Of a stretch of DNA of 52,446 nt, positions 24,373-52,446 are shown one piece after another. This DNA is from a virus. The position numbers and the translations under genes are program-made. The first letter of the stretch is position 1; each line of letters opens with the position of its first letter. Below the pieces are notes generated by a model. The model did no database searches and was not told where the DNA came from. It was given only the letters and a program-made list of their open reading frames with translations. The DNA is taken from the IMG/VR virus record IMGVR_UViG_3300020463_000029, positions 1 through 52,446 of that record; one strand, written 5' to 3'.

Positions 24373-24381
24373 GGAGATATT

Positions 24382-25398: not shown

Positions 25399-25420
25399 TA
25401 AAAAGGAGTAAATATAGTAT

Positions 25421-27819: not shown

Positions 27820-28770
27820 ATGACAGAAAATAAAAGACCTAAGGCTTTTTTTCTTAATGGTGGAATGGGTAGAATTATATCTGCAATCCCTGCCTTGGAA
27901 AAATATCAAGAAGCAAACACAGATCCTGACTTTATAATTGTAATAGAAGGAATATGTGACATACTAAATGGACATCCAACACTGGATGGAAAAACTTATG
28001 ATATGTATCATAAGAATTTATTTCATACAAAATTAGTAAACATGGATATTGTAAGTCCAGAACCATACAGAGTAAATGAATATTTCAATCAAAAATGTAG
28101 TATTGCCCAAGCATTTGATATTCTTATTAACAAGCAAGGAGTAAGAGATTTACCTAAACCAACTTTAGTTTTAAGTAAAGAAGAATTATTGTCCGCCAGA
28201 AAAGCCATAGACGAAATAAAAGAAAAAACAAAGAAAGAAAAAGTTGTAATAATACAACCATTCGGACGTGCTATAAAACAAATAGACAATTCTTTTGTTG
28301 ATGCAAGTAATCGTAGTATAGAGTTTCATAACTTAAAAAACATGATACGTAAATTAATGAAAAAAGACTTTGCAGTTGTGCTTATGTCTGAATTTGGAAT
28401 AGATTTTAAAGATGCAGGTTTTCAAGATGAGGTTGCACTACCTGAAAAAGTAACTTTAAGACAATGGGCAGGCATAATAAAATATGCAGATGTATTTTTA
28501 GGTTGTGATTCAGTTGGTCAACATTTAGCATATGCCGTTGATACTCCAGCAAATGTTGTGTTGGGTGCAACATACCCTGAAAACACTTCATATCCTGATG
28601 TAAAAAATTTTAATATAATTGATTTAGGACAAATGACAAGAGAATATGATCCTATAAGAATAAGTTATGATGAAAGAATTAGTAGAAAAAATGAAACTAT
28701 TATGAGCATGACTCCAGAAATAGAAGATTATGTGGTATCAGCAGTAAACGGTGATCCAATTGAGGAATAA
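27820..28770 (+). CDS. GT9/ADP-heptosyltransferase-like glycosyltransferase 1
   Basis: A 316-aa protein resembling the GT-B fold ADP-heptose:LPS heptosyltransferase family (GT9). The N-terminal nucleotide-fold start is FFLNGGMGRIISAIPALEKY (residues 10-29), where heptosyltransferases have GDxLxxxPAL. The C-terminal donor-site motif is FLGCDSVGQHLAYAVDTPAN (about 225-244), matching the family pattern DSGxxHLAxAxxxP, followed by VVLGATYP. Residues about 85-120 (EYFNQKCSIAQAFDILINKQ) are shared with its paralogue at 30596. The donor could be ADP-heptose, since hldE and hldD are also encoded here. The acceptor is unknown. It is the first gene of a three-gene unit with the carbamoyltransferase 3 nt downstream. 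Confidence 0.75.
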   Translation: MTENKRPKAFFLNGGMGRIISAIPALEKYQEANTDPDFIIVIEGICDILNGHPTLDGKTYDMYHKNLFHTKLVNMDIVSPEPYRVNEYFNQKCSIAQAFDILINKQGVRDLPKPTLVLSKEELLSARKAIDEIKEKTKKEKVVIIQPFGRAIKQIDNSFVDASNRSIEFHNLKNMIRKLMKKDFAVVLMSEFGIDFKDAGFQDEVALPEKVTLRQWAGIIKYADVFLGCDSVGQHLAYAVDTPANVVLGATYPENTSYPDVKNFNIIDLGQMTREYDPIRISYDERISRKNETIMSMTPEIEDYVVSAVNGDPIEE

Positions 28771-28773
28771 ATT

Positions 28774-30603: not shown

Positions 30604-31573
30604 AAAAACAGCAATCTTTTTAAATGGCGGTGCTGGTAGAATGATTAGTTCCATACCGGCAGTAGAAAAATATCTAGAAGAAAATCCAGATAAAGACCCA
30701 ATACTGATTTGTGAGGGTGGTACAGATGTATTCAAAGGTCATCCTAAGTTGCATTTCAGAGCATATGACAATTGGCACAAAAATTTATTCCAAGATTTAC
30801 TTAAAGATAGAGATTTAATCAGTCCAGAACCATATAGAATATGGGAATACTACAATCAAAAATGTAATCTAGCACAGGCATATGATATTGCAATAAATGA
30901 TAAAGGAATAAGAGACTTACCAAAACCTAATTTAAAACTTTCTAAAGAAGAATTATTACTTGCAAGAAAAATGATTGCAGAAGTAAAAGAAAAAACTGGT
31001 AAAGACAAAGTGATTGTTTTCCAACCATTTGGAAGAGGTGCCCAACCTGAAGAATTGAAAGAAAGTGAGAAAGAAAAAACACCGGATATTGTTGATGTTA
31101 CAGGTAGAAGTATTGAACTTAAAAACATCTGGAACATTGTGCGTCAATTATCTAAAGATGTTGGTGTTATGATAATGAGCGAATTTCCATTAGACTTTCA
31201 AAAACACATGAACAAGCCTGTTGCCACTCCAATGGGAGTACACATTAGAGTATGGATGGCTGTGATAAAACAAGCAGATCATTTCCTTGGTTGCGATAGT
31301 GTAGGACAACACATGGCTTATTCCTATGATAAAACAGCAACAGTTGTAATAGGTTCAACTTATCCCATAAACACCAGTTTTCCAGATGCAGAAAAATTCA
31401 ATGTAATTGACTTAGGAAAAGACGACAGAGTATACAGTCCTATAAGAGTTACATCAGATGAGTTTTCAGACCGTATAAATGAAGGCATTATGGCTATGGA
31501 GAGCGAAACTGAGGATAGAATAGTGAAGTCAGTACATAGATTGATAAAACACGGTAAAAATACCCGTAAATAG
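30596..31573 (+). CDS. GT9/ADP-heptosyltransferase-like glycosyltransferase 2
   Basis: A 325-aa paralogue of the product of 27820-28770. Shared segments are FLNGGAGRMISSIPAVEKYL (residues 8-27), EYYNQKCNLAQAYDIAINDK, IRDLPKPNLKLSKEELLLAR, and the donor-site-like FLGCDSVGQHMAYSYDKTAT (about 223-242). It has an insertion of about 12 residues (EELKESEKEKTPDI) relative to copy 1. Its start lies inside the last codons of the carbamoyltransferase (8-nt overlap), so translation is coupled. Two non-identical copies suggest two successive transfers or two acceptors. The donor sugar is inferred to be ADP-heptose. Confidence 0.75.
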   Translation: MDRKTAIFLNGGAGRMISSIPAVEKYLEENPDKDPILICEGGTDVFKGHPKLHFRAYDNWHKNLFQDLLKDRDLISPEPYRIWEYYNQKCNLAQAYDIAINDKGIRDLPKPNLKLSKEELLLARKMIAEVKEKTGKDKVIVFQPFGRGAQPEELKESEKEKTPDIVDVTGRSIELKNIWNIVRQLSKDVGVMIMSEFPLDFQKHMNKPVATPMGVHIRVWMAVIKQADHFLGCDSVGQHMAYSYDKTATVVIGSTYPINTSFPDAEKFNVIDLGKDDRVYSPIRVTSDEFSDRINEGIMAMESETEDRIVKSVHRLIKHGKNTRK

Positions 31574-39900: not shown

Positions 39901-40971
39901 GCGGCGACAGGTCTTTCTTTAACAACAACAAGACAAACTGTATTCCTATTAAGACTAGCACCATCAGTATCAAATGCATTGACAGGTGATCTAGGAGACA
40001 GAGACTTATTGAACAGAGCACAGTTGCTACTAGACGGAATTGAAATAACATCGAACCAAGCGGCGGCAGGTGACCAAGGTCAGTTGGTTGTACAAGGTGT
40101 ATTGAATCCACAAAACTATCCAATTGATCCAGCAGATATTGGTTGGGCGGACTTAACGGGTGTTGCCCAAGGTGGTCAGCCAAGTTTTGGTCAGATAGCG
40201 GCAGGTGGTTCAGTTAACTGGAACGGTGGTGCATCAACTACTACTCAAACAGCGGCAACTCAAGCACAGATGACTGCAACAGCAAACCACTGGTTCAACT
40301 TAGGTGGTAACAGAAACTATGCATACTTCCTTGAAGCACAATGGGAAGGTAAAGGTTTAAGAGTTGGTATGGCAGTTACTTCAGGACAATTCCCATCAGG
40401 TACAGTTGTTACACAGATTATTGACTACAACTCATACTACTTTGTAAGATTTAACAATAGACACACAGGTATATCAGGTGGACAAGCAGTTGACTTTGCA
40501 CTAGGTGGTGACCTAACAGGTACAAACTTCTTGTACATGGATCAAACAACTTGGGAGGCTTCAGGTGCAGTAAGTGGTACAGAAGTTGATACGGCTTACG
40601 CTAATTTCCCACCAGGTACAACAGTGTCACAAGTTGACCCACTAGATACATTTGGTGCAACAAACTTCTACAGAGTGGTGTTTACACAGACATCATCAGG
40701 AACTATTACAGCAGGTAGTAACATAACGTTTGTATTTGGTCAACCGCCATATGCACAACCAGGTGAAACAATCTTTTCATTCATTGCGGTACCGGGTGAA
40801 CGTGCAAACTTGGGACTTGATAAGATCAAAGTATTGACAAACACAACACTAGGTGGACGAGGAACGTTCCCTAATGGTCCAGACGTGTTAGCAATCAACG
40901 TTTATAGAACAGCAGGTACAGGTGGTGTTTCATCAACAGTTACACTACGTTGGTCAGAAGCACAAGCGTAA
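33946..40971 (+). CDS. Giant virion structural protein with internal repeat array
   Basis: At 2341 aa it is the longest gene here. Residues 1-420 are Asn/Ala-rich with predicted helices and two motifs of the type DI-x-x-x-x-DxRYGGN (about 95-120 and 225-245). Short FCCH-like or strand modules lie near 519, 1458 and 1597. Residues about 744-1453 form an array of about nine repeats of roughly 80 aa (GSGYAVGDxIxIxGTxLGGxxPxND). The conserved C-terminal part begins near 1680 (TGVGTRFREQVKAGDRIVIR) and has MIGIQFSWYGAGFIDWMCRG, FVHRMRNSNIN and MRTGNQPVRYEVTNEGPNG, which are typical of large structural proteins of marine T4-like phages. The gene ends 2 bp from the convergent cupin gene. Baseplate or fibre location is inferred. 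Confidence 0.78.
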   Translation: MAKRRVENYKFTPGIPLSGNLYPNAWAQINANKEWLKDESNAFINFKVAQDTAADLYPNTSARITNNLDYIKSEVAAWVAVQVAGNVSPFAGYSKLAADIKTDTGNVVNAAYRDTRYGGNENIRLQSGTYFADGVLQLANDGDPEVAYLTKARDIVVNYILPGIAYSSINSDGFSQNTTGTNGEAGGVSGYTTNHNVITNAIDNGILTLPALVSSVYVFENFTYDSYLCERDMGYNIDGILKDLRYGGNEQSRYNASTYWVGTVSVLSGDRQPEEAVKNEIRNIINNYVIPGNAFTTKQNPVVTQQTILGTPGEAGATTRVTSLFGIITDVVINGLDNLPAQINNGISSVKVPEKIDLERLLLITNATDNNVLYTFNDPAKGATAEYKREYSTDTSNPTAFVDPDFPKAFHGNDAITTLFLETDTSTDNSTDRIQIFVEDNQLTVRPFDFGTDAIERMRVAQPESMLDADFEYGLQPTKWSAISTQRGYPSIYEVPGTDFDVSGVTSDASAGTQGIGSSLITVTTVGPHGFEAGQPLTITGFDNGVAGASRAAGSFTVNTVVSTTQFTYYAKAKVGQVNPTTISTNATQLREGAFYTGAAIGFPTFSVSDNGSSGSIVTALAALSGTTFLPYSGATPPIGAPLSGTGIQTGTQITAINGTGGALASPTVTGDYLSGVTEIQVADSAGIVQNSVIDRGDGYAVTITNVAGNSLTLSAPLTQPLVGDVTQYTNLAGANYSPQGQLARFNITRTGGNYSAAIVASGENYAVGDAIVVSGTDLGGSTPANDCTVLVQTIDTGGEILTVTASGSAFTGTGTATGVAPTFNGNAGSGAQLNLTKTNGTYSVALNSPTYTNISGTQTTPGGSNATFDVTAAGGNYTVAVNNAGSGYAQNDVIRITGSEFGGTTSNHLNIRVTAVSGSGEIQTINAGGNAPDQTVTYNSPAFTSDQAGVNAQFNVTRTGTTYSAVITGIGSGYVQNEVLTFVGTNLGGATTANDATITVDSVDGNGGILTFTVGGTAVDTKDYTALSTGVNLVGSSGTFDIAISGAVATVTSNTAGDDYGVGQEIILLGSLFGGQDSVHDITVTVTAVTGGTGAGPISTLSQAYTGSAGAAPVDGTSGYSVGDLYVINGSDAGASAAVNDAYVSVSSVNGQGGITALAVTGTGTDANVDYVSPAYTTSASGTGAVFDINRTGAVYTATFSNNGSSFVGAETIDIAGTALGGSSPANDCQITVNTVSAGAVATFTVTGTAVNTQTFTNVNKAYRTGVGLSVDVELSGGTYTVSLNNAGSGYNANQSFTIPGTSLFGATPTNDLTFDVGSVDAQSTGVVTALANQSGTANTGTGQSLNVAGTNRTPQGVGAQYSVTRTNATDSSTAYTECQVTSTGSNYAVGDKLIISGANLGGQNITNDITVRVQQVNTNGGILASTHEGTAVGGTGLQVFSSVTISDPTSQNIAQTQTVTYSALATMQIDFATPHGLVPGNAFLVVIQSDDGANNHILASGPFLATAIPSPTQLRYQVRSPGAITDSGWQGFVYGRPDSFFVHRPFDGGVQLGTGGPAHGAQAIRQSKKYIRYQSGKGCMYTTGALFAPSYDILNVTADGTNSGATITVTIDDVDHNLQVGAKIRLVGIATSGYDGTYTVASVTSERVLTITAQITLGATTAEFTDQPQVSLYQWNGATVRSGIFDDQNGIFWEYDGQQTNAVQRTATRQLAGTVTVTPDSNTVTGVGTRFREQVKAGDRIVIRGMTHVVAGVASNTSMNVTPDYRGVNTSAGVKICAVVDKKAKQSEFNRDVLDGTGASGYNWNVSKMQMIGIQFSWYGAGFIDWMCRGHKGEFIFVHRMRNSNINTEAFMRTGNQPVRYEVTNEGPNGKLEADMTTVQTTVPLVDASFFPTTGGTVYIDNEVITFTGVSGDTLTGCTRAAQLTNFASGATRSYTGGTASTHFRNSGVVLISNTASPNISHWGSAYLTDGNFDEDRGYLFSYAATGLSLTTTRQTVFLLRLAPSVSNALTGDLGDRDLLNRAQLLLDGIEITSNQAAAGDQGQLVVQGVLNPQNYPIDPADIGWADLTGVAQGGQPSFGQIAAGGSVNWNGGASTTTQTAATQAQMTATANHWFNLGGNRNYAYFLEAQWEGKGLRVGMAVTSGQFPSGTVVTQIIDYNSYYFVRFNNRHTGISGGQAVDFALGGDLTGTNFLYMDQTTWEASGAVSGTEVDTAYANFPPGTTVSQVDPLDTFGATNFYRVVFTQTSSGTITAGSNITFVFGQPPYAQPGETIFSFIAVPGERANLGLDKIKVLTNTTLGGRGTFPNGPDVLAINVYRTAGTGGVSSTVTLRWSEAQA
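36175..38305 (+). repeat. Array of about nine 80-residue repeats in the 2341-aa protein
   Basis: Each unit encodes F-x-V-T-R-T-G-x-Y, then a GSGYxVGD turn, a strand, GTxLGG, PxND and a V-x-V strand. Unit 2 is shortened and units 5-6 are irregular. A single related unit occurs in the 1714-aa adhesin near 12410-12665. Confidence 0.7.
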
Positions 40972-40973
40972 TT

Positions 40974-41357
40974 TTATTTTTCTTCTAAAGGTTTTAATTG
41001 GCTATCACCTTTTATAATTCGATAATTATCTTCAGGATCATCAGCAGTGCTAACTTCAGTAATACTGCCGGAGTCGGTGATGCATTGTAATTGATGTGGC
41101 ATTAGAGGCAAATTTCTCCATGTTTCGCCTTCTTTTAATTCTTTTGTGTAAAGTGTTGCGTCTTTCGTATCAATCCAACTTAATAAAAATCTACCTGAAT
41201 TAACAAACCAACTTTCATCTTTTGTTTTGTGAAAATGCATAGAAAATTTAGCATTCTTTTTTGTGAATACTAAAAGTTTTCCGCAATATAGATCATTGGA
41301 AGAGAATATTAATTCGTAACCCCAAGATTTATCTACTTTACCTTCTTTATTAATCAT
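40974..41357 (-). CDS. Cupin-fold protein, sugar-isomerase-like
   Basis: A 127-aa single-domain cupin. Motif 1 is seen in SMHFHKTKDESWFVNSGRF (His-x-His, Glu and Gly, residues about 38-57), and motif 2 in PLMPHQLQCITDSG (His near 88). The WGYELIF start and overall length resemble the C-terminal domain of mannose-6-phosphate isomerase type II and related sugar-binding cupins. It is the last gene of the minus-strand operon, overlapping hldD by 8 nt. An isomerase or epimerase role in nucleotide-sugar or heptose supply is plausible but not shown. Its stop faces the giant structural gene with a 2-bp gap, so there is no room for a terminator. Confidence 0.75.
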   Translation of the reverse strand: MINKEGKVDKSWGYELIFSSNDLYCGKLLVFTKKNAKFSMHFHKTKDESWFVNSGRFLLSWIDTKDATLYTKELKEGETWRNLPLMPHQLQCITDSGSITEVSTADDPEDNYRIIKGDSQLKPLEEK

Positions 41358-42165
41358 TTAAAAATTCTTCAACTGTTTTAAATTTGTGTTGTATATGTTT
41401 ATTTAATTCTGTCAAATCTGCTGAGGTGTAGGTCTGATATTGTCCTTGTAATTTTCCAGGCATTGGTACTATTTCTATTTCAGCATTGTATTTTTTGGCA
41501 ACTAAATCAGCAACTTTTTGAAAAGAAATAGGTGCTCCTGTACCTATATTGAAAATTCCTGACACATCTTTTGTAAGCATTTTGCCATGCACTTCGCACA
41601 CATCATTTACACTTACAAAATCTCTTAGATATTTGTCACTGTTTTCAAATAATTTTATTTTGCCTGTTTTGGCTTGGTTTGCAAATTTAGTAATTGGTGA
41701 TGCTTGATCGCCTTTGCTTTCTTCATTGTTTCCATACACATTAAAGTATCTAAAACCTTGCACAAGAACTTTGAATTCACCCATTATGCTTTCCACAAAT
41801 CTGTCAAACATATATTTGCTCCATGCATAAGCATTTAGTGGATACACGTCACCGTCTTCTTTGAAGTTTCCAGTGTTACCGTACACACTTGCCGAACTGG
41901 CATATTGAAAATTTGTACCCATTGTGTCACACATTTCTAAAAGTTTCATACTGTATTCTAGATTATGTTTTAAAATTTTGTCTACGTTTCTTTCAGTGGT
42001 GCTTGATATCGCTCCTAAATGAATAACCCAATCATATAAAGAAGGATCAGGAAAATGATTTACACCTTGCCAAGGAAAGCCAATTACTTCGTGCCCTTCT
42101 TTAGTTAATTGCATTCCTAAATGATTACCTATAAATCCTTTATATCCTGTTAAACAAATTCTCAC
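41350..42165 (-). CDS. hldD: NAD-dependent sugar epimerase, HldD-like
   Basis: A 271-aa short-chain dehydrogenase/reductase-type epimerase. The dinucleotide-binding motif GYKGFIG is at residues 7-13. HLGAISSTTE (49-58) and YASSASVYGN (88-97) are typical of ADP-glyceromannoheptose 6-epimerase, as is Tyr113-x3-Lys117 in AYAWSKYMFD. QGFRYFNVYGNNEESKGDQA (136-155) parallels the HldD segment with the YG-x-x-E-x-x-KG pattern, followed by RDFVSVNDV. HldD converts ADP-D-glycero- to ADP-L-glycero-manno-heptose. It is shorter than E. coli HldD (310 aa). Start and stop overlap both neighbours. With hldE in the same operon, the assignment to ADP-heptose is well supported, though another nucleotide-sugar substrate is possible. 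Confidence 0.8.
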   Translation of the reverse strand: MRICLTGYKGFIGNHLGMQLTKEGHEVIGFPWQGVNHFPDPSLYDWVIHLGAISSTTERNVDKILKHNLEYSMKLLEMCDTMGTNFQYASSASVYGNTGNFKEDGDVYPLNAYAWSKYMFDRFVESIMGEFKVLVQGFRYFNVYGNNEESKGDQASPITKFANQAKTGKIKLFENSDKYLRDFVSVNDVCEVHGKMLTKDVSGIFNIGTGAPISFQKVADLVAKKYNAEIEIVPMPGKLQGQYQTYTSADLTELNKHIQHKFKTVEEFLND

Positions 42166-42764
42166 GTATTACTCCACAATTTTATAATTTCTTCTGAACC
42201 TTTTGGCGCTATATCTTTTGTTAATTGATCTGTATGATGTGCAACATAATTGATATTGATGTTTACTCTTGATCTCGCATCTGTACAAGTGCTACCTGAG
42301 TGTTCCATATAACTAGGAAATATAACCATAGAGTTTGCAACACTTCCAACTTTATCGCCATCTTTAAATTCTGTATATCCGTTGTTTGTATTACAATAAA
42401 AAATTGCTGTGTAACTTAATGGCACACTTACATCACAATGCATACCATGAGTAACAATTTCACTTTGACTAGGAATATTATTTGCTTTAACACGTAAAAA
42501 AGTATGTGGTTGTAACACAGTAAATATTGGTATTAACATATTCCATAGTTCTGGTCCTGTTACAATGTTGCTAACTTCGTGAAATTTGTGTACAAATTGT
42601 ATTTGCAATCTTTCATCTGTGTTTGCTTGGTGTGGATGTACCAAGTGGTCTTGATAAAACCAAGGAAATTTGTCACTAAACATTATGTCACTAATACCTT
42701 GAAATTGTTCTTGACTCAAAGCATCTGTAATTATAATTTTGTTATTTTTTATTGTTTTGTTCAT
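42162..42764 (-). CDS. 2OG-Fe(II) oxygenase (operon copy)
   Basis: A 200-aa protein with the iron/2-oxoglutarate facial triad: His109-x-Asp111 in HGMHCDVSVPLSYTAIFYCN, His155 in FPSYMEHSGST, and an Arg near 164-166 in ARSRVNININY for 2-oxoglutarate. The FPSYMEH segment is characteristic of phage 2OG oxygenases. It overlaps hldE by 23 nt and hldD by 4 nt. Hydroxylation of a sugar, protein or nucleobase are all possible. Because it lies between hldE and hldD, modification of the heptose or its acceptor is an attractive guess. It differs clearly from the oxygenase at 48080. Confidence 0.82.
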   Translation of the reverse strand: MNKTIKNNKIIITDALSQEQFQGISDIMFSDKFPWFYQDHLVHPHQANTDERLQIQFVHKFHEVSNIVTGPELWNMLIPIFTVLQPHTFLRVKANNIPSQSEIVTHGMHCDVSVPLSYTAIFYCNTNNGYTEFKDGDKVGSVANSMVIFPSYMEHSGSTCTDARSRVNININYVAHHTDQLTKDIAPKGSEEIIKLWSNT

Positions 42765-44001
42765 TAACTTTGTCCACTATATTAGATGTTGAAAAACCTT
42801 TTACCGTTGGAAAAATTTTTACATCTGCTAATTCATTTCCTACTGTTGTTGCCACAGTATAATCTCCACCTTTGACTATAATATCTGGTCCATTATTTTT
42901 AATTGCTTCTATCGGAGTATCTTCTTCAAACACAACAACTTTATCTACCCAAGGTAATTGTAATAATTGTTGTTCACGTATGATAGCATTGTTAAATGGT
43001 CTATCATCGCCTTTTAATCTTTTAACACTTGTATCTGAATTGATTCCAACAATAAGAATATCCCCTTGTTGTTTTGCAAATTTTAATAATTCAAAATGTC
43101 CTTTGTGTAATATATCAAACACACCATTTGTCCATACAATGATGTCTTCAATATCTGTTTTAGAAATAATAGATACTCCTCTTTTTTGTACAATTTTTTG
43201 AGCACCTTTGTATGCAAGTTCACAAGCACTAGGAATATCTTTGTGCTGACTGTAATGAGCAATAATGGCAAGTACAGAATCACCTGCACCACTTACATCT
43301 GATACTTCTATTGCATCACCTTTTATGTGTTTGTAGGAATCTTTGCTTACCACATGAATGCCATTTGCACCGTCAGTTACAATTAACCAAGTCCATAAAT
43401 TTGATTTGCATCTATCTTGTGCAATTTCTATGTTGAATTTGCCAAACCATGCCTCGTATTCTTTCATGTTTGGTTTTATTAAAAATGCTCCAATATATCT
43501 ACTGAATCCTTGCTTTGGGTCGACATAAACATTTTTACATTTTGTTAAAATTTTTTGGACTGTGTCTTTTTGTATAACTCCTTTATTGTAATCGCTGATT
43601 AAAACTGTGTCAGTATCTACAAGGTCTTTCAATAATTCATCTTCAACTGTGCTTTTGGTATATGACTGTTCTTTGTCTACTCTTAACAGATGTTGACCAT
43701 TTTGTCCCACCATTCTTGTTTTGGTTGTGGTCATTTCTGCATCTTGGCAAACACGTGATGATATGTTATTTTGCAGTAAAATTTCAATGATTTTGTGCCC
43801 GGCAATGTCTTTGCCCACGGCACCATATAGCCACGTGTCTGTGCCCAAGTTTGACAGGTTTAAAGCGAGGTTTCCTGCCCCTCCAACGTTGAAGTCTTTA
43901 GTTTTTTCTTTGAGTACAATGACTGGTGCTTCAGGACTGACTCTATCGCAGTCTCCTTCAATCCAGGAGTCTAGCATTACATCACCAATTATTTTAATCA
44001 T
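42742..44001 (-). CDS. hldE: Bifunctional heptose-7-P kinase / heptose-1-P adenylyltransferase
   Basis: A 419-aa protein with both HldE domains. The PfkB/ribokinase-like kinase covers residues about 1-285, with VGGAGNLALNLSNLG (39-53) and the catalytic motif DVSGAGDSV (235-243). The adenylyltransferase covers about 288-419, with TNGVFDILHKGHFELL (291-306, HxGH at 299-302) and GFSTSNIV (402-409). The family phosphorylates D-glycero-manno-heptose 7-phosphate at C1 and later adds AMP to give ADP-heptose. It is shorter than E. coli HldE (477 aa). The sedoheptulose-7-P isomerase (GmhA) and the phosphatase (GmhB) are not seen in this window and would come from elsewhere in the phage or from the host. 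It overlaps the Nudix gene by 4 nt. Confidence 0.9.
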   Translation of the reverse strand: MIKIIGDVMLDSWIEGDCDRVSPEAPVIVLKEKTKDFNVGGAGNLALNLSNLGTDTWLYGAVGKDIAGHKIIEILLQNNISSRVCQDAEMTTTKTRMVGQNGQHLLRVDKEQSYTKSTVEDELLKDLVDTDTVLISDYNKGVIQKDTVQKILTKCKNVYVDPKQGFSRYIGAFLIKPNMKEYEAWFGKFNIEIAQDRCKSNLWTWLIVTDGANGIHVVSKDSYKHIKGDAIEVSDVSGAGDSVLAIIAHYSQHKDIPSACELAYKGAQKIVQKRGVSIISKTDIEDIIVWTNGVFDILHKGHFELLKFAKQQGDILIVGINSDTSVKRLKGDDRPFNNAIIREQQLLQLPWVDKVVVFEEDTPIEAIKNNGPDIIVKGGDYTVATTVGNELADVKIFPTVKGFSTSNIVDKVNEQNNKK

Positions 44002-44429
44002 TGCATTAATTTTAACATTTTGAACACTGTATCCAATTTCAATTGATTATTTTTATTTTGGATAGTTTTACGTAATCCTTGATGCAAAGGTTTAGGCCAA
44101 TGACCAAAACTTACCCAAGCATAGCCATCGTGTTCTGTGTTTAATTTTGGAATAAATTCATTTTGAACAACGCAAATGTATGTATGATACAAAAAGTTTT
44201 CATCATTACTAATAAAAGTTTCCATGGGTATTCTTTTTATAATTTTTTGTTCACCAATTTCTTCTTTTATTTCTCTTTGGAGACCTTCCCATAAATTTTC
44301 ATTGGTAGTTGTGCCACCAACTAATCCCCATACTTGATTTTGTTTACTCTGTGTTCTATGCAACAACAAGAAACGTTGTGTGTCTAAAGTGTAGAAGAGT
44401 GCTCCACACCCGGTTATTTTACTGCTCAT
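43998..44429 (-). CDS. Nudix hydrolase
   Basis: A 143-aa Nudix protein when started at the ATG at 44429 (MSSKITGCGALFYT), which is 16 nt after the gp15 stop. A longer open frame reaching back to 44528 would overlap gp15 and lacks family similarity at its N-terminus. The Nudix box is complete: G38-x5-E44-x7-R52E53-x2-E56E57-x-G59 (GGTTTNENLWEGLQREIKEE). The family hydrolyses nucleoside diphosphates linked to another moiety. In this operon an ADP-sugar or a host or phage nucleotide pool is a possible target, as is RNA cap removal. The stop overlaps the hldE start by 4 nt. Confidence 0.85.
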   Translation of the reverse strand: MSSKITGCGALFYTLDTQRFLLLHRTQSKQNQVWGLVGGTTTNENLWEGLQREIKEEIGEQKIIKRIPMETFISNDENFLYHTYICVVQNEFIPKLNTEHDGYAWVSFGHWPKPLHQGLRKTIQNKNNQLKLDTVFKMLKLMQ

Positions 44430-44445
44430 GTAATTAATTATGTGA

Positions 44446-45903
44446 CTAAGAGATCTTCCAAGTGCCTTTTCGATATTCACCTTCGAACGATAATAACCAT
44501 TCACTACCATTCCATTTGTATTGCACACCCGTCTTTAAATTGGTAATGTATGAAGGTATAAATGTGCTGTCACCTGGATCAGGATTTGCACTTGAATCAA
44601 AAATAATTTCCCAATTGGTACCATTCCATTCAACAATGTCATTAGCACCTGCTACCAAATCAATATTACTGATGCCTTTCCAAGCATCTGCACCATCAAC
44701 ATTTGAAGCACTGCCTATATCTTTTAATAACAATAGTCTTTTTCCATTTTGTTTCACACTTGATGGATTGTATGTTGTTGGATCAACAATAAAGTCTACA
44801 GATCCTCTCGTATCTACTGGGCCAACAATTATTGTGTCAGTTGGAATAGTGTCTTCGTCCCAAGTTACTAAAAGTTGGAAAGGGTTGGTTTCGTTAACTG
44901 CAACTGTACCAATTACTGGAACATCTATTCCTTCTCTATGTAAAGATATTTGACTTAATCCAGTTTTGAAATTTGGAATTACATTTAAATATCCGTCCCA
45001 TACTATTCCACCAATTACACCTTTATCTATAATTTGTACTACACTGTTTAACACGTACACATCAAATTGTGTGCCTGTTGTTCCTTGTACAGAACTTGTA
45101 TCTTTTCTTGTTGCAACACTTGAATCAATAGTGCCGTCTGCACTTGCTCTAATATCTGCTTTAATACTTTTTTCGTAATCATCTTGATATGCCATTAGTT
45201 CAGGCATTGTTTCACTTAAATCAATATTTCCTGTTCTTTCGTTGAATATACTTGTTATAATATGAGTGATAACTCCTAACTTTTTAACTTTTGTAGGTGG
45301 ACTGATGTATATCGGCATTGTGAAAGTCATTGATGCAACATCTATTTCTGTTTCTGTGCCTGTTGGAATTGTATTAGAAGCAAATGTTATGTTTGTTAGT
45401 TCCACAACACTTAAACTTGTCCAGTCTACATAATTGTCAGTAGTTTGTATTTCTAAACTAGGGTTAAACAACATCATAATTTGTTCCATGATTTGTAATT
45501 TTTGTTCTGTGTTACTTGTCCACATATCAACATTCATTGTTAGTGTGTAAGGTGTAGGCATTAAACGTTCTACAGTAACATTTTTACCTTGTGTGTTTAA
45601 GTATTCTTTGTTATTACTGTCATATGCACGTTCTCTGATGTGTATTTTACTAACAAAACTTGCGTCTGCAATTCTTGTTCTATCCATTTCTAAGCCTTGT
45701 ACATATGCCGCCATTCTTGGAACAGAAGGTAATTTATTTTCAGAATTATCTCTTATGATGTGTGCAACTTGTCTTGTTATATTTCCATACATCACTGGTA
45801 TTTGTCTAAGAGCACCATCACCATCTTTATATGAAAAATTACTCAATAGACGAATTAACTGTGTAATATATCTTCTAATTTGTCCATCGTAAAAATGTTG
45901 CAT
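44446..45903 (-). CDS. 15: T4 gp15-like proximal tail sheath stabilizer / tail completion protein
   Basis: A 485-aa protein. Residues 1-240 match the gp15 family of marine T4-like phages: QHFYDGQIRRYITQLIRLLS, DGALRQIPVMYGNITRQVAH, RAYDSNNKEYLNTQ, VERLMPTPYTLTMNVDMWTS and EQIMMLFNPSLEIQTTDNYV. T4 gp15 caps the finished tail tube and sheath and joins the tail to the neck; T4's protein is shorter (272 aa). The C-terminal half is extra: a DPTTYNPSSVKQNGKRLL segment and two WNG strand modules (VEWNGTNWEIIF and YKWNGSEWLLSF). The start overlaps the stop of the 53-codon gene as TAATG. It belongs to the gp14 operon. Confidence 0.87.
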   Translation of the reverse strand: MQHFYDGQIRRYITQLIRLLSNFSYKDGDGALRQIPVMYGNITRQVAHIIRDNSENKLPSVPRMAAYVQGLEMDRTRIADASFVSKIHIRERAYDSNNKEYLNTQGKNVTVERLMPTPYTLTMNVDMWTSNTEQKLQIMEQIMMLFNPSLEIQTTDNYVDWTSLSVVELTNITFASNTIPTGTETEIDVASMTFTMPIYISPPTKVKKLGVITHIITSIFNERTGNIDLSETMPELMAYQDDYEKSIKADIRASADGTIDSSVATRKDTSSVQGTTGTQFDVYVLNSVVQIIDKGVIGGIVWDGYLNVIPNFKTGLSQISLHREGIDVPVIGTVAVNETNPFQLLVTWDEDTIPTDTIIVGPVDTRGSVDFIVDPTTYNPSSVKQNGKRLLLLKDIGSASNVDGADAWKGISNIDLVAGANDIVEWNGTNWEIIFDSSANPDPGDSTFIPSYITNLKTGVQYKWNGSEWLLSFEGEYRKGTWKIS

Positions 45904-46064
45904 TATTTTTTCTCTTTATTTTTCTCGTTAAATTTTTTACTTTTAGGTGCGTAATATGTTCTTACTTTTCCCATATATTTTTTAGTTACCTTTTTGAGTC
46001 CTTGTGGCCCTGCTGTATGATCCATTGGTATCCCAACTATGCCAAATAACTCTTTTAATTTCAT
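45903..46064 (-). CDS. 53-aa microgene between gp14 and gp15
   Basis: A minus-strand frame of 53 codons that begins at the last base of the gp14 stop (TAATGA overlap at 46062-46066) and ends TAA, overlapping the gp15 ATG at 45901-45903 in TAATG. The product is MKLKELFGIVGIPMDHTAGP and then a basic tail ending NEKNKEKK. It is Lys-rich (pI high) with a conserved-looking GIPMDHTAGPQGL segment. Both junctions are perfect stop-start overlaps, which strongly favours a real, translationally coupled gene. Its function is unknown; a small neck or assembly factor is inferred from context. Confidence 0.72.
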   Translation of the reverse strand: MKLKELFGIVGIPMDHTAGPQGLKKVTKKYMGKVRTYYAPKSKKFNEKNKEKK

Positions 46065-47221
46065 TATTCATCCGCCTTAGGTCTTAATGCTTTTGATAAA
46101 CTTTGTCTTTCTTTAACTGTTTCGCCACCAACATTTCTAGTTTTTGTGTTGTTAATAAATGTTCCTTTTTGTGTCGCTCTTGTATCTGTTTGTGATAATG
46201 TATGACGTATATTATCTTCCATTTTCACCCAACGTCCACCATCATATCTAAACAATCTATTTGGTAAAAAGTCAGTACGTAAAAAATAATCCCCTTTGTC
46301 TGAGGCAGTTGGGAAACTTATTCCAAATCCAAATACTTCACCATTAGGTGCAAGTCCGTCACCTAGCAAGTAACCGTCGTAACCAGTTTTACTTGGAGTC
46401 TGATTGACTCTGTCAGCCAATGTGTTTTGTGTGGATGCATCTAATGTACTTGTATCAGTTGTAACAAGTTCAGGTTTTCCTTTATCATCAACTTGCAGTG
46501 TGTAAAAATGTGCAATATCATATCCTGACTTGCCTGAATCTGCTTCTGCTTGTTGTACCACTGCATTATTAATTTGCATTTCTTGTTCATATGTAGAAAG
46601 TACATCACGTAATTTTTGTGCAGACCCTTCTTCTGTAGGTAAGTCAAGTATGTCTTTAAATTCTTGTGAGTCGTAAATTTGTTTTAATTTTACTCTATAA
46701 AGATGTGGATACCAAGTAGGTGAAAAACCTTCTGCCGCTCTGTTAATATCTTCTACAACATAAAAACGTTTTAGTGCAACTTGGAAATCATTTAATGCAT
46801 ACTCGTCTTTCAAGTGTGGTAATTCAAATACATCACCAGGCATAATTTTTCTGCCTAAAGTTTTTACACTTGAAGTGATTGGTATTGTCATAAACAATGT
46901 GTCATTGGCTAAGAAAAGTCCAAATTGACTCATATCAAAGTCTATGTCTGAAACATTATAAATTCCACGAAGTTTATACACGTCAGGGTCATACTTTCTA
47001 TCCCTATTTTCTAGGAACAACATATCCTGAATGTTGGTTTCTTTTACTGCATTATATCTAGGTTGAGCGGCTGTGGCGTCATCCTCACTTGGATTCTTAG
47101 GTCCTAGGTATTTGTGTACAAAGACATCAGTACCGCCAACAGTGAACATTTCTGCTACTGTTTTATCTAAAAACGTGTAATCATGACCTTTTTCGGGTTT
47201 ATATAGACTTAATCTAGGCAT
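46064..47221 (-). CDS. 14: T4 gp14-like neck protein
   Basis: A 385-aa protein matching the gp14 neck family of marine T4-like phages: FTVGGTDVFVHKYLGPKNPS (about 27-46), IQDMLFLENRDRKYDPDVYK, LRGIYNVSDIDFDMSQFGLF and the PGDVFELPHLKDEY segment, with KRFYVVEDINRAAEGFSPTW. T4 gp14 (256 aa) forms the neck with gp13 and permits head-tail joining; this version is longer by a Gln/Asp-rich C-terminus. The first gene of an eight-gene minus-strand operon, it starts 7 nt after a GATAAATA element with no ribosome binding site, so its mRNA should be leaderless. It is divergent from gp13, unlike the usual colinear order. Confidence 0.87.
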   Translation of the reverse strand: MPRLSLYKPEKGHDYTFLDKTVAEMFTVGGTDVFVHKYLGPKNPSEDDATAAQPRYNAVKETNIQDMLFLENRDRKYDPDVYKLRGIYNVSDIDFDMSQFGLFLANDTLFMTIPITSSVKTLGRKIMPGDVFELPHLKDEYALNDFQVALKRFYVVEDINRAAEGFSPTWYPHLYRVKLKQIYDSQEFKDILDLPTEEGSAQKLRDVLSTYEQEMQINNAVVQQAEADSGKSGYDIAHFYTLQVDDKGKPELVTTDTSTLDASTQNTLADRVNQTPSKTGYDGYLLGDGLAPNGEVFGFGISFPTASDKGDYFLRTDFLPNRLFRYDGGRWVKMEDNIRHTLSQTDTRATQKGTFINNTKTRNVGGETVKERQSLSKALRPKADE

Positions 47222-47228
47222 ACTGTTA

Positions 47229-47236
47229 TATTTATC
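47229..47236 (-). promoter_or_regulatory. T4-type late promoter, GATAAATA (divergent, gp14 side)
   Basis: The plus-strand TATTTATC is GATAAATA on the minus strand, 7 nt before the gp14 ATG. With the + strand element at 47251-47258 it forms a bidirectional late promoter region of about 55 bp. Confidence 0.78.
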
Positions 47237-47250
47237 GGATGGTCACTACT

Positions 47251-47258
47251 GATAAATA
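47251..47258 (+). promoter_or_regulatory. T4-type late promoter, GATAAATA (divergent, gp13 side)
   Basis: GATAAATA lies 18 nt before the gp13 ATG at 47277, with an AAGGA ribosome binding site. It faces away from the element at 47229-47236. Confidence 0.78.
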
Positions 47259-47276
47259 TCAGTAAGGATATTATAA

Positions 47277-48035
47277 ATGAGCAATTTAACCACAGAAAAA
47301 CAAGAGGTATTTGACTACGTATTCAATTCGCTAGGTGGCGGAATGGTAGATGTAGAACTGGATCCTTCACACTACGAAACAGCATTACAGGATTCATTAG
47401 ACAGATTTAGACAGAGAGCAGACAATTCAGTAGAAGAAAGTTACATATTTTTGCCCCTTGAAAATGATGTCAACGATTACACCCTTGCTAATGAAATAAT
47501 AGAAGTACGTCAAATATTCAGAAGATCAATTGGGTCAAGATCAGGTGGTGGAGATGGTGGTACAATCTTTGAACCATTCAATTTAGCATACACAAACACA
47601 TATCTTTTAGCAAGTTCTAATATGGGTGGTGTTGCAACTTACAATATGTTTTCACAATACCAAGAACTAATAGGACGTATGTTTGGTTCATTTATTGAAT
47701 TCAAATGGAACACAACAACAAAAAAATTGACTATTTTACAAAGACCAAGAGCAAACGAAAAAGTGTTAATGATGGTGTATATGCACAGACCAGATACAGA
47801 ATTATTCAAAGATTATTTGGCAAAAAAATGGATTAAAGATTACACTTTGGCAAAATGTAAGTTTATGCTTGGTGAAGCCAGAAGTAAATTCAACACAATA
47901 GCAGGACCACAAGGTGGCACTTCATTAAATGGTGACACTTTAAAACAAGAAGCACAGGCAGAAATGGATAGACTTGAATTAGAAGTCAAAACTCAAACTG
48001 CAGGTGGTCAAGGTTATTCATTCTTAATTGGTTAA
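47277..48035 (+). CDS. 13: T4 gp13-like neck protein
   Basis: A 252-aa protein like the gp13 neck family of marine T4-like phages. The N-terminal part has FDYVFNSLGGGMVDVELDPS and YETALQDSLDRFRQRADNSV, which corresponds to the family pattern of a short helix, a hydrophobic V-x-V-E/D strand and the D-x-A-L-x-x-A-x-x-R/F helix. YIFLPLENDVNDYTLANEII and EVRQIFRR follow; the WIKDYTLAKCKFMLGEARSK segment (about 180-199) and the Gly-rich end are also typical. T4 gp13 (309 aa) completes the head-tail neck with gp14. It starts after an AAGGA site, downstream of the bidirectional late promoter. Confidence 0.85.
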   Translation: MSNLTTEKQEVFDYVFNSLGGGMVDVELDPSHYETALQDSLDRFRQRADNSVEESYIFLPLENDVNDYTLANEIIEVRQIFRRSIGSRSGGGDGGTIFEPFNLAYTNTYLLASSNMGGVATYNMFSQYQELIGRMFGSFIEFKWNTTTKKLTILQRPRANEKVLMMVYMHRPDTELFKDYLAKKWIKDYTLAKCKFMLGEARSKFNTIAGPQGGTSLNGDTLKQEAQAEMDRLELEVKTQTAGGQGYSFLIG

Positions 48036-48042
48036 TTCCATA

Positions 48043-48071
48043 TTGACATATTAGTATTTTTGTTGTATTAT
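48043..48071 (+). promoter_or_regulatory. Consensus sigma70-type promoter: TTGACA-17-TATTAT
   Basis: TTGACA (48043-48048), a 17-nt spacer and TATTAT (48066-48071) form a near-perfect host sigma70 promoter in the 44-bp gap after gp13. The predicted start near 48078 lies 2 nt before the ATG at 48080, so the oxygenase mRNA would be leaderless. It is the only such promoter seen, and it puts the oxygenase and the dNMP kinase under early, host-RNA-polymerase control. Confidence 0.72.
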
Positions 48072-48079
48072 CGTATGAT

Positions 48080-48721
48080 ATGCAACATCAAATGATTCCA
48101 TTATTCTCCGTGCCTTTATACAAAGCATCAATAGGTGAATTGGATGTATTGCAGAAAACATGGATAAGAGAATTAGATTTCCCACCACAAAGTGTTGGTA
48201 CAGATCATTCAGATGACCACTTGCCACCAGAAAATAGAGGTATGCATTTATTGGATACTCCACAATTAAAATCGCTGAAAGCAAATATACAAAAAAGTTT
48301 AAAACATTTTACAAAAGATGTGCTAGGCATAAAAGAAGAGTTTAGAATCACAACAAGTTGGATTAATAGGAACAACAAAGGCGAACAAATATACAAGCAT
48401 TCACATCCTAACAGTGTAATAAGTGGTGTGTACTACATAGAAACAACACCAGATTGTGCCCCTATAATATTTGAGAAACCTTATTTGTACACAAATATTG
48501 CACATCAAAATGTTCAACTTACGTATGAAGAAAACAACAAAAACGAATACAACACAGACTACTATGGTGTTATGCCTAAACCAGGAGACGTATTGATGTT
48601 TCCGTCCTGGTTAGAACACACAGTATATCCTCAACCTGCTGACGTGGCACGAATTAGTTTGGCTTTTAATAGTTTTCCTGTGGGCAAAATTGGATCAGGA
48701 ACAAAACAGTTAGAAATATGA
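48080..48721 (+). CDS. 2OG-Fe(II) oxygenase, TIGR02466-like
   Basis: A 213-aa protein with the TIGR02466-type layout. His107 and His109 lie in KHSHPNSVISGVYYI, PGDVLMFPSWLEHTVYP supplies His180, and RISLAFNSFP supplies Arg191 for 2-oxoglutarate. The N-terminus (IPLFSVPLYK) is also characteristic of the family. These are common in marine T4-like phages with unknown substrates. There is no ribosome binding site; the ATG is about 2 nt from the predicted sigma70 start. An alternative start is Met5 (48092). The stop overlaps the dNMP kinase start as ATGA. Early expression with the kinase suggests a nucleotide, tRNA or host-protein target rather than virion assembly; that is inference. Confidence 0.83.
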   Translation: MQHQMIPLFSVPLYKASIGELDVLQKTWIRELDFPPQSVGTDHSDDHLPPENRGMHLLDTPQLKSLKANIQKSLKHFTKDVLGIKEEFRITTSWINRNNKGEQIYKHSHPNSVISGVYYIETTPDCAPIIFEKPYLYTNIAHQNVQLTYEENNKNEYNTDYYGVMPKPGDVLMFPSWLEHTVYPQPADVARISLAFNSFPVGKIGSGTKQLEI

Positions 48722-49344
48722 TTATAGGAATATGTGGCTTGATAGGAGCAGGCAAAGACACAATAGCAGATCATTTAGTTAATGATCATTCATTTGTAAA
48801 ATTGTCTTTTGCAGACAAACTTAAAGACAGTGTTGCCACAATGTTTGATTGGAATAGAGACCTACTAGATGGCAAAACAGAACAAAGTAGAAAATGGCGT
48901 GAACAAATGGATCCTTTCTGGAGCATGGAATTAAAACATGAAGTGACTCCAAGACTTGTATTGCAAAAGTTTGGTACAGAGTGTATGAGAGATGGATTCT
49001 ATGATGGCATCTGGGTCAGTTTAGTTAAAAAGAAACTTAAAGACAATCCACAGATTAATTGGGTAATACCTGATGTAAGATTTGAAAATGAAGCAAATAT
49101 GATACAAGAACTAGGTGGTGAAGTTTGGTGGGTAAAACGTGGACAACTGCCTATGTGGTTTAGAATGTATCAAGACATTGGGCAGAAACCTAAAGATGTA
49201 CACGCATCTGAATGGGCATGGGCAAATACAAATTTTGATGCTGAATTTGAAAATAACGCAACAATTAATAGTCTTAAAAATCAGGTACAAGATCACCTTG
49301 TTTCCAACGGATTCCTTCAAGGTGCAAAGATCTTTGGCAATTAG
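48718..49344 (+). CDS. 1: Deoxynucleoside monophosphate kinase, T4 gp1-like
   Basis: A 208-aa protein like T4 gp1, which phosphorylates dGMP, dTMP and hydroxymethyl-dCMP for phage DNA synthesis. The P-loop GLIGAGKDT is at residues 7-15. Further family matches are FVKLSFADKLKDSVATMFDW, RKWREQMDPFWS, LQKFGTECMRDGFYDGIWVS and the VIPDVRFENEANMIQELGG segment. The length is close to T4's 241 aa. Its start overlaps the oxygenase stop by 4 nt, so the two are co-translated, under the upstream sigma70-type promoter. The 3' end overlaps the opposite-strand HNH-type gene by 71 nt, giving possible antisense interference late in infection. Confidence 0.9.
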   Translation: MIIGICGLIGAGKDTIADHLVNDHSFVKLSFADKLKDSVATMFDWNRDLLDGKTEQSRKWREQMDPFWSMELKHEVTPRLVLQKFGTECMRDGFYDGIWVSLVKKKLKDNPQINWVIPDVRFENEANMIQELGGEVWWVKRGQLPMWFRMYQDIGQKPKDVHASEWAWANTNFDAEFENNATINSLKNQVQDHLVSNGFLQGAKIFGN

Positions 49345-49615
49345 CACACACCGTCTTTAAATTACTAAACTTGCAATTATCAAGATTACCATCTATATGA
49401 AATACGTTGAAGTGCGATTTATAGTTGCTTTTGTGACCACATTTATCACATTGCTTGTTAATACGATAGCCAGCCACGTGCCATTTCGGCATATATCCGC
49501 TTGGGCCTCCATACCGCAAACACAACTCACACTTCTTTCTGTAATATGTCTTGCCTGCCTTTTTATAATTTACTGCGGCTGGTCTTTGACTACATTTTGT
49601 ACATAATGGTCTCAT
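49274..49615 (-). CDS. HNH-type zinc-ribbon protein, antisense to gp1 end
   Basis: A 113-aa protein with two Cys pairs of zinc-ribbon type at the N-terminus (LCTKCSQRPAAVNY, then KKCELC), a third pair in CDKCGHKSNY, and an HNH-like core FHIDGNLDNCKFSNLKTVCA followed by NCQR. The usual final His of the HNH motif is replaced by Gln, so nuclease activity is uncertain. Close relatives are a conserved feature of marine T4-like phages, ending GDLVPDF as here. The ATG is 7 nt after a GGTAAATA late-type element on the same strand, with no ribosome binding site, so it is probably leaderless. Its last 71 nt overlap the gp1 gene in antisense. Confidence 0.75.
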   Translation of the reverse strand: MRPLCTKCSQRPAAVNYKKAGKTYYRKKCELCLRYGGPSGYMPKWHVAGYRINKQCDKCGHKSNYKSHFNVFHIDGNLDNCKFSNLKTVCANCQRSLHLEGIRWKQGDLVPDF

Positions 49616-49622
49616 ATGTACG

Positions 49623-49630
49623 TATTTACC
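49623..49630 (-). promoter_or_regulatory. Late promoter variant, GGTAAATA
   Basis: The plus-strand TATTTACC is GGTAAATA on the minus strand and lies 7 nt before the ATG of the HNH-type gene at 49615. The same octamer precedes 31640. Confidence 0.55.
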
Positions 49631-49686
49631 TGCCCTTTCCTACCCCTTTTTTATACCTGTTAATTTGGTGCATTTCGTCACAACGT

Positions 49687-49694
49687 CATAAATA
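49687..49694 (+). promoter_or_regulatory. T4-type late promoter, CATAAATA
   Basis: CATAAATA lies 46 nt before the tail sheath ATG at 49741, with a TAGGAG ribosome binding site. This is the longest leader of the ordinary late genes here. Confidence 0.75.
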
Positions 49695-49740
49695 CAAACA
49701 ATATAAAGTTTAAAATACTTTAAGTAGGAGATAAGCAAAT

Positions 49741-52446
49741 GGCATTAGTTTCACCAGGAGTACAAGTCAGCGTAATTGACGAAAGTTTTTATACACCAGC
49801 AGAACCAGGAACGGTTCCATGTATATTCATAGCAACAGCACAAGACAAAACGTCTAGTTCTGGAACAGGCACAGCAACAGGAACAACAGCGGCAAATGCC
49901 GGTAAAGTTTTCTTGATGACTTCACAAAGAGAATTAGCAGAAACATTTGGTGATCCAGTATTTAAAACTGATGCAAGTAATAATCCAATCCACGGTGGTG
50001 AAACAAACGAGTATGGATTACAAGCGGCTTATTCATTCTTAGGTGTTGCCAACAGAGCATTCGTTGTAAGAGCAAATGTTGACTTAGGTCAACTAGAAGC
50101 AAGTGCAACAGCACCAGCGGCAAATCCAGTTGCAGGTACATATTGGTTCGACACAGTAAATTCAAAATACGGAGTATTTGAATGGAATGGTTCAGCGGCA
50201 ACTACAACAGGTGGTCAATCATTCACAAATCAAGCAGTAACAGTAATTACAGATATCGATCAAATCAGTGCAAGTGTTCCTAAAAATTCAGTTGGACAAG
50301 CAGGTGATTATGCGATCAATGCCACTGACACAAACAACGATTTATTCTACAAAAAATATGATGGTAACTGGGTAGCAGTAGGAACAGCAGACTGGGTTGG
50401 TTCAAATCCAACTATCAAAGGTTCAGCAGGTGGTACCGTAGGTGCAGGTAATTTTACACTTGATGTAGGTGCAGGTCCACAAACAATAACTCCAGGTGCT
50501 CAAACAGTTACAGCGGCGGCGGCGGCAGTTGTTGCGGCAAATGTAGCAGGATTAAGTGCAAGAGACAACGGTGGTATCTTAGAAATATATTACACAGGTG
50601 CGGCAGGCAACACAGTTCAAATAGCAAATGGTACAATAGATGTTAGTGCATCATATGGTATAACAGCGGCTACTTACAATGTACCAGCATTATCAGTTGC
50701 TCCACACACTTCAGTACCAGAATTTAAATCAACAGATTCAACTCCAAGACCAACTGGTTCAGTTTGGTTAAAAACTACAGAGCCTAATTTAGGTGCTAAA
50801 TGGAGTGTTAAAAAATGGAACGACACAACAAAATTATGGGAAACTATAAGTGCTCCATTACACACTAACAACGAATCTGCAATCTACAATTTAGATAGAA
50901 CAGGTGGCGGTGCTGGTTTGGCAGTAGGTGATTTATTCATTAACTACGGCAACGGTTCGACTGAAGTTGACCATGTTATTTTCAGAAGAGAATCAACAGG
51001 TTCAACAAAAGTAACAGGTTCAGCAATAATATTAGGAACTTTAACATCAGGTAGTAAATCATTTACTCTTGCAGAATCAATTGTAGGTCAAGAGACTTTA
51101 AATGCACCAGTAACAATCACTTGTTCATTAAACGGTAATGCCGCTGACGCAGATGTGATTGCAGGTCAAATAAACGGCGCTGGATTTACAAATGTTAAAG
51201 CAAGTGTTGACTCATCAAAAAGAATAGTAATTGAACACACAAAAGGTGGTGAGATGAAGTTTGTTGACACAAACGGCACTTTAGCAGAAGCAGGTTTCTT
51301 ACAAACAACAACTAACATGGGATATGAGCCAGGCACAGGTTCAGGAACAAATCCTAAACAGTACAGAGCAAGTAACTGGAAAGCATTAACTTATACTGCA
51401 AGTGCAACAGCAGTAACTTCATTAACAAATGATGGTCAATTATGGTACTCATCAATTGTAGACGAAGTAGACATAATGTATCACAACGGTACAACATGGA
51501 AAGGTTATTCAGCAGTAACAAATTCAGACCCAGCAGGTCCACAAGTTTCTGCAACTGCTCCAACTACACAGTCAGATGCAACAGCACTTGTTGATGGTGA
51601 CTTATGGATTAGCACAGCAGACTTAGAAAACTATCCAGGAATTTACAAATGGAATGGTTCAACTCTAAAATGGGTATTAGTAGATAAAAGTGACCAAACA
51701 ACTGAAAACGGAATTGTGTTTGCAGATGCAAGATTTGGTACAACAGGTGGAACGGCTTCGGCGGCTCCAGCAGGTACTATTGCAGATTTATTAGCAAGTG
51801 ACTTTTTAGATGCAGATGCTCCAGATCCAGCATTATATCCAAAAGGTATGTTGTTATGGAACACAAGACGTTCAGGTTTCAATGTTAAGAAATTTACAAG
51901 AAATCATGTTGACACAACAGCAACAAACCCTAGACAAGGTGATGCAAGTATGTCAGCATACTATCCACACAGATGGGTAACTGAGTCGGCTAACCAAACA
52001 GATGGTTCAGGTTCATTTGGTAGACACGCACAAAGAAAAGTTATTGTACAAGGTTTACAAGCAGAGATGAATGCTAACCAAGAAGTTAGAGATGATGAAT
52101 CAAGAATATTCAACTTATTAGCAACACCTGGTTATCCAGAACTAATAGGCGAAATGATTTCACTAAACGCAGACAGAGGCTTGTCAGCATTTATAGTTGG
52201 TGACTCACCAATGAGATTAACACCAGATGCAACAAGTTTACAAAACTGGGCAACAAACGTTAACAAGGCTGTTGAAGATAACGACAATGGTTTAGTTACA
52301 ACAAACGAATATCTAGGAGTATTTTATCCATCAGGATTTACTTCAGACAACTTCGGCAACAATGTTGTTGTTCCAGCATCACACATGATGTTAAGAACTA
52401 TTGCATTAAGCGATCAAGTTTCTTTCCCATGGTTTGCACCAGCAGG
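49741..52446 (+). CDS. 18: T4 gp18-like tail sheath protein, 3' truncated by window end
   Basis: The frame is open to the window end (902 codons, no stop). The start MALVSPGVQVSVIDESFYTP follows TAGGAGAT. The core matches the gp18 family: FLMTSQRELAETFGDPVFKT (about 57-76), GLQAAYSFLGVANRAFVVRA (about 94-113), YPKGMLLWNTRRSGFNVKKF (about 700-719) and the final PWFAPAG, which lies near the C-terminal conserved end in T4. T4 gp18 (659 aa) forms the contractile sheath. This protein is enlarged in the middle by modules of the G-x-LW-x-(6-12)-WNG type, for example GTYWFDTVNSKYGVFEWNG and GDLWISTADLENYPGIYKWNG. Only a short C-terminus should be missing. The extra modules may decorate the sheath surface. 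Confidence 0.92.

Follow-up and report, generated by a model that had tools for sequence, protein, structure and literature searches.

A conserved host-type promoter before a nucleotide-kinase unit in the late neck-to-sheath block of RaK2-related marine phages, with a probably leaderless message

Why does a promoter of host type stand among the late virion genes of a T4-like phage, and which gene does it serve? The question arises from a virus fragment in IMG/VR that carries neck and tail genes of T4-like type and was analyzed over its whole 52,446 nt (hereafter, the window). Among cultured phages, those that best match its gp14-like and gp13-like proteins are jumbo phages, for example Atu_ph07, Phosso, and PA5oct, and a near-DNA search of window positions 40500-52446 against cultured phages gave no match. 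The carrier is a T4-like, RaK2-related marine phage. The features at issue are as follows.

47229..47236 (−): late motif, a CGATAAATA-type site before the gp14-like gene
47251..47258 (+): T4-type late motif GATAAATA, 18 nt before gp13
47277..48035 (+): gp13-like neck protein, the upstream late gene (phrog_211)
48043..48048 (+): −35 hexamer TTGACA (TTGAC in 75 of 75 contigs, TTGACA in 73)
48066..48071 (+): −10 hexamer TATTAT (TAnnnT in all 75 contigs, always at a spacing of exactly 17 nt)
48077..48080 (+): predicted start of transcription, on the AUG or immediately before it, placed by the usual sigma70 spacing
48080..48721 (+): 2OG-Fe(II) oxygenase, 213 aa, first gene of the unit (phrog_81; PF13759, 2OG-FeII_Oxy_5, 89.6 bits, above the cut-off of 27)
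48718..48721 (+): ATGA stop/start overlap of oxygenase and kinase (4 nt in 45 of 45 loci)
48718..49344 (+): deoxynucleoside monophosphate (dNMP) kinase, 208 aa (phrog_139; PF21448, 47.4 bits, above the cut-off of 27.1)
49687..49694 (+): late motif CATAAATA, 44 nt before the tail-sheath ATG at 49739 (sheath, phrog_10581)

As originally predicted, TTGACA-17-TATTAT is present between gp13 and the oxygenase, at 48043-48071 (+); the oxygenase and kinase reading frames are also as first described, joined by their ATGA overlap. The site occupies the 44-nt gap from the gp13 stop (48035) to the oxygenase ATG (48080) and agrees with sigma70-type hexamers at 11 of 12 positions. The kinase further matches structure 1dek, the T4 enzyme (E 3.2e-5). 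The T4-type late motif NATAAATA is absent from the 80 nt before the oxygenase and present before gp13 and gp14. No terminator-like sites were listed between gp13 and the kinase, and transcription from GATAAATA may read through into the kinase unit. An HNH-like ORF (window 49274-49615, −) runs antisense to the 3′ end of the kinase gene with a 71-nt overlap, and its homologue adjoins the kinase in 78 of 80 distinct kinase loci. Elsewhere, the window encodes three paralogues in tandem, each of 320-338 aa and rich in cysteine and glycine (23410-26392, +), the first matching phrog_4205 (function unknown), and a carbamoyltransferase (PF16861, PF02543) between two similar genes (27820-31573, +), the first of which matches glycosyltransferase family 9.

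Counts within the window fall within chance, and we discarded sequence-only significance as promoter evidence. Sites with at least 11 of 12 matches number 3 against 2.95 expected from dinucleotide shuffles; therefore, the window sequence alone proves nothing about a promoter. TTGACA-17 followed by a five-of-six −10 occurs once against 0.4 expected from such shuffles, and looser promoter-like sites between 40000 and 52446 number 54 against 46.9. Plain pattern counts in eight records gave more control than true matches in four (G000, G004, G006, and G007) and fewer in the other four. Nor is the site, the only sigma70-like promoter first noticed, the only good match in the window: Positions 2137 (overlapping a late motif) and 11897 (within a gene) likewise reach 11 of 12.

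Close relatives carry the case. Two scans of viral contigs, from which we took the best 80 of 150 matches and all 23 matches, yielded 95 loci; 84 had a complete gp13 end and kinase start, and with nine repeat contigs set aside they represent 75 distinct contigs. TTGAC(A/T)-17-TAnnnT lies between gp13 and the next gene in all 75 contigs (84 of 84 loci), across 20 different spacer sequences. Because the hexamers and their 17-nt spacing persist while the spacers differ, the promoter stands above chance: Hexamers about 17 nt apart are under selection here, as expected of a sigma70-type promoter. Judged by this conservation, the promoter at 48043-48071 is real.

What follows the promoter is less constant. 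The first gene begins with ATG in every contig and encodes the oxygenase in 46, the kinase itself in 27, and a lipoprotein-like ORF in 2. Since the same promoter is found whatever first gene follows, it tracks the kinase unit, with a variable slot for the first gene. Oxygenase carriers do not form one clade in a gp13-plus-kinase tree of 52 sequences; the relevant supports, 29-77, do not separate gain of the oxygenase from its loss. By eye, the two exceptional contigs (L054 and L055) fill the slot held elsewhere by the oxygenase, between gp13 and the kinase, with a small lipoprotein-like ORF that has an SD-like AAGGA.

To place the promoter in a temporal class, we compared it with others in G001, a 155-kb relative. 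Nine of 13 intergenic sigma70-type sites were kept; those at 16579, 72550, 77010, and 79223 had no near start and were dropped, and the SbcD site, 212 nt from the called start of that gene, was retained on inspection by eye. Five of the nine lie upstream of genes for primase, SSB, gp55, SbcD, and the kinase; the other four precede one sugar kinase/adenylyltransferase gene and three genes without a match, and no recognised virion gene stands behind any of the nine. Among genes with NATAAATA within 80 nt upstream, 22 of 23 were examined, namely 20 scanned genes plus gp13 and gp14: 12 encode virion or connector proteins (two of these calls resting on lower-ranked families), none belongs to DNA metabolism, and 10 have no assignment. 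The class comparison is thus 5:0 for sigma70-type sites versus 0:12 for the late motif (Fisher P = 1.6e-4). Gene calls in G001-G007 come from a simple ORF caller, and a 343-aa gene was searched with only its first 103 aa against PHROGs and at full length against Pfam. An inverted repeat, ATTAGTT-CGA-AACTAAT, abuts the primase −35 in L141-L157 (by eye; imperfect in several loci) and is a possible operator.

Sequence comparison therefore shows the promoter to be conserved among close relatives and its class to be common to replication genes, and it supports early or middle use of the kinase-unit promoter, the two stages not being told apart. The original prediction of a host-type early promoter in the tail region holds insofar as the site appears to drive the kinase unit and shares its class with the DNA-replication-gene promoters of G001; on timing, it holds as early or middle. 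For the cultured jumbo relative CBB, the authors attribute RpoD-like promoters to early genes, ATAAATA to structural ones, and a third, separate motif, TGAAACG, to DNA-synthesis genes (PMC5259590).

The original prediction passed over the distance from promoter to start codon. In 59 of 75 contigs, the −10 ends 6-8 nt before the ATG; in 13 others the gap is 11-14 nt, and in the remaining three the geometry is not a leaderless one (L065, which has AGGAG, and L054 and L055, which have AAGGA before the inserted ORF). Sigma70 transcription starts about 7 nt after the −10, which would put the AUG at or next to +1; leaderless mRNAs are therefore likely for several early-type genes. The same geometry recurs elsewhere: For primase (20 of 20 loci), delta-aminolevulinic acid dehydratase (ALAD; 11 of 11), and a 427-aa gene of no assigned function (11 of 11, one further locus without the start being left out), the −10 ends 6-7 nt before the ATG in 42 of 42 loci, which include contigs used before (G001, G002, G003, and G005). 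In five contigs, 131 genes have 30 nt or more upstream; before these, sites of at least 11 of 12 matches number 7 against 0.02 expected at a 5-8-nt gap to the ATG and 4 against 0.08 expected at 15-30 nt; the seven close-gap sites are not independent, as they include the kinase/oxygenase unit in three contigs and primase in two. A usable SD-like 4-mer is absent from all seven close-gap genes checked, one of which has AAGG 1 nt from its ATG, and in the five contigs as a whole, 53-66% of genes encoding 100 aa or more have such a 4-mer; G001 contains both kinds of promoter, with and without an SD. A start of the oxygenase at Met5 would have made space for a leader, but three orthologue groups have no Met5, and we rejected that start.

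We see an even chance that the marine RaK2-related clade possesses a recurring leaderless class, TTGAC-17-TATAAT-6-ATG with the AUG at +1, serving primase, dNMP kinase/oxygenase, ALAD, sugar kinase/adenylyltransferase, and genes of no assigned function. This class is the new, testable part of the finding. We found no leaderless early promoters described for T4-like or jumbo phages in the open-access literature. In the available portions of PMC9004378 and PMC2704228, the word "leaderless" occurs in the reference lists only. Phage transcripts are often leaderless, according to PMC5312081, the leaders of AR9 itself measuring 26-491 nt, and E. coli translates some leaderless AUG genes efficiently, according to PMC4631060. 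The phage-encoded ALAD (L110:16866-17678, in G005; PF00490) lies behind a leaderless-type promoter in 11 of 11 loci; a profile search of its alignment against genome contigs, run for a clue to the host, turned up no relative.

Co-regulation had been taken to tie the oxygenase to nucleotide or DNA metabolism. That link is not supported, because the first-gene slot is interchangeable, the kinase being driven directly in 27 of the 75 contigs and the lipoprotein-like ORF taking the first place in 2. Residues H107, H109, H180, and R191, candidates for the metal and 2OG site, are invariant in 14 of 14 aligned oxygenase sequences. Solved relatives are 2rg4 and 3bvc, both uncharacterised; they also lead the fold matches of an AlphaFold2 model (pLDDT 74), followed by the HIF prolyl hydroxylase PHD2. 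The fold search gave 271 matches at E ≤ 0.001, and among the 50 of these that were listed, PolD, from a nucleoside-antibiotic pathway, is row 14. Four homologues examined in cultured phages keep mixed company: an oxygenase array beside neck genes in Mosig, an oxygenase array in P-RSM6, hypothetical genes in ACG-2014j, and assorted auxiliary genes in S-B64, with a ribonucleotide reductase gene about 3 kb away. A nucleotide substrate for the oxygenase is possible but not indicated. Another window gene (42162-42764, −) bears the phrog_274 label DNA endonuclease V; that label may be wrong, since by eye the product has an H-C-D...H...R pattern, it matches PF13759 faintly (E 0.067), and genes so labelled stand among oxygenases in Mosig and P-RSM6.

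Three other readings were weighed. The unit might simply belong to a late operon transcribed from the T4-type promoter before gp13, the TTGACA/TATTAT match being incidental; the upstream GATAAATA, the lack of a listed terminator-like site, the chance-level promoter statistics, the late motif at the slot in GAP32 and XbC2, and the want of room for a promoter in PA5oct all fit. Yet an incidental match would hardly keep its −35, −10, and 17-nt spacing in 75 of 75 contigs despite 20 differing spacers, or recur in class before primase, SSB, gp55, and SbcD, and we regard this reading as very improbable. A second reading, in which activity on nucleotides or DNA explains why the oxygenase is kept with the kinase, fares little better. 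It draws on the common promoter, the overlap in 45 of 45 loci, and PolD among the listed fold matches, but 29 of 75 same-promoter contigs lack the oxygenase, two of them holding another ORF, the best fold matches are uncharacterised proteins or protein hydroxylases, and the four cultured-phage neighborhoods are not consistently nucleotide genes; we think it improbable.

A stronger competitor, though still an unlikely one, grants a real promoter and differs on its schedule, which would be middle or infection-long instead of early. The promoter class covers replication genes and gp55, and DNA-synthesis genes of CBB have a motif apart from the early class (PMC5259590). The −35 here, however, is plain TTGAC rather than the TGAAACG of CBB, and an unsystematic look found no phage-specific element.

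We therefore favor, with good though not full confidence, the joint reading of 48043-48071 as a host sigma70-type promoter that gives pre-late kinase transcription from a leaderless mRNA with an interchangeable first-gene slot. The dNMP kinase, although in the late neck-to-sheath block, would receive its own transcription before late transcription. Host RNA polymerase would start on the AUG or no more than about 3 nt from it, ribosomes would begin on the 5′-terminal AUG of the oxygenase and reach the kinase through the ATGA overlap, and the T4-type promoter before gp13 would later also read through into the unit. The oxygenase would be an occupant of the slot and need not act on nucleotides.

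A replication enzyme lodged among late virion genes can, on this reading, be expressed on its own schedule. The locus also cautions that operon place is a poor guide to enzyme function when a slot is interchangeable. If the leaderless reading is true, it yields a set of early-type phage genes whose translation in the absence of SD pairing can be tested directly, and such SD-independent translation could favor these genes over host messages early in infection.

Cultured relatives share the arrangement and differ in its signals. The order gp13-kinase-sheath, with at most five genes between and variable genes in the slot, is the same in 121Q, RaK2 (gp13 taken by position), GAP32, XbC2, PA5oct, Vibrio phage 2.275.O, and Phosso; the Atu_ph07 stretch after gp13 has no annotated kinase. 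Unlike the marine clade, GAP32 and XbC2 have TATAAATA in the slot instead of a host-type promoter, with TATAAATAC directly after the gp13 stop (by eye), PA5oct has a gap of only 4 nt, and 121Q has a hairpin followed by TGATATAAT (both by eye). The strict TTGACA-17 promoter is not kept at the slot in these more distant cultured jumbo phages. Slot promoter type thus seems to change between lineages, the strict form being a marine-clade feature, which suggests that related phage lineages have exchanged promoter types (host-type, T4-late, or none) at a slot whose place is fixed.

A known leaderless mRNA with its −10 next to the ORF is that of lambda cI. The wider scheme resembles that of CBB, also reported for GAP32, in which host-type early promoters coexist with a T4-like late motif before structural genes; in CBB, most RpoD-like promoters precede short early ORFs, whereas here one lies in the neck-sheath block, and the word "leaderless" is absent from the available part of the CBB promoter description (PMC5259590). 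The closest geometric likeness is to the leaderless mRNAs of Deinococcus-Thermus, whose −10 is too near the ATG for a leader; those genes mostly lack a classical −35 (PMC12340547), whereas the genes here are of phage early type and keep a strict −35 at a strict 17-nt spacing.
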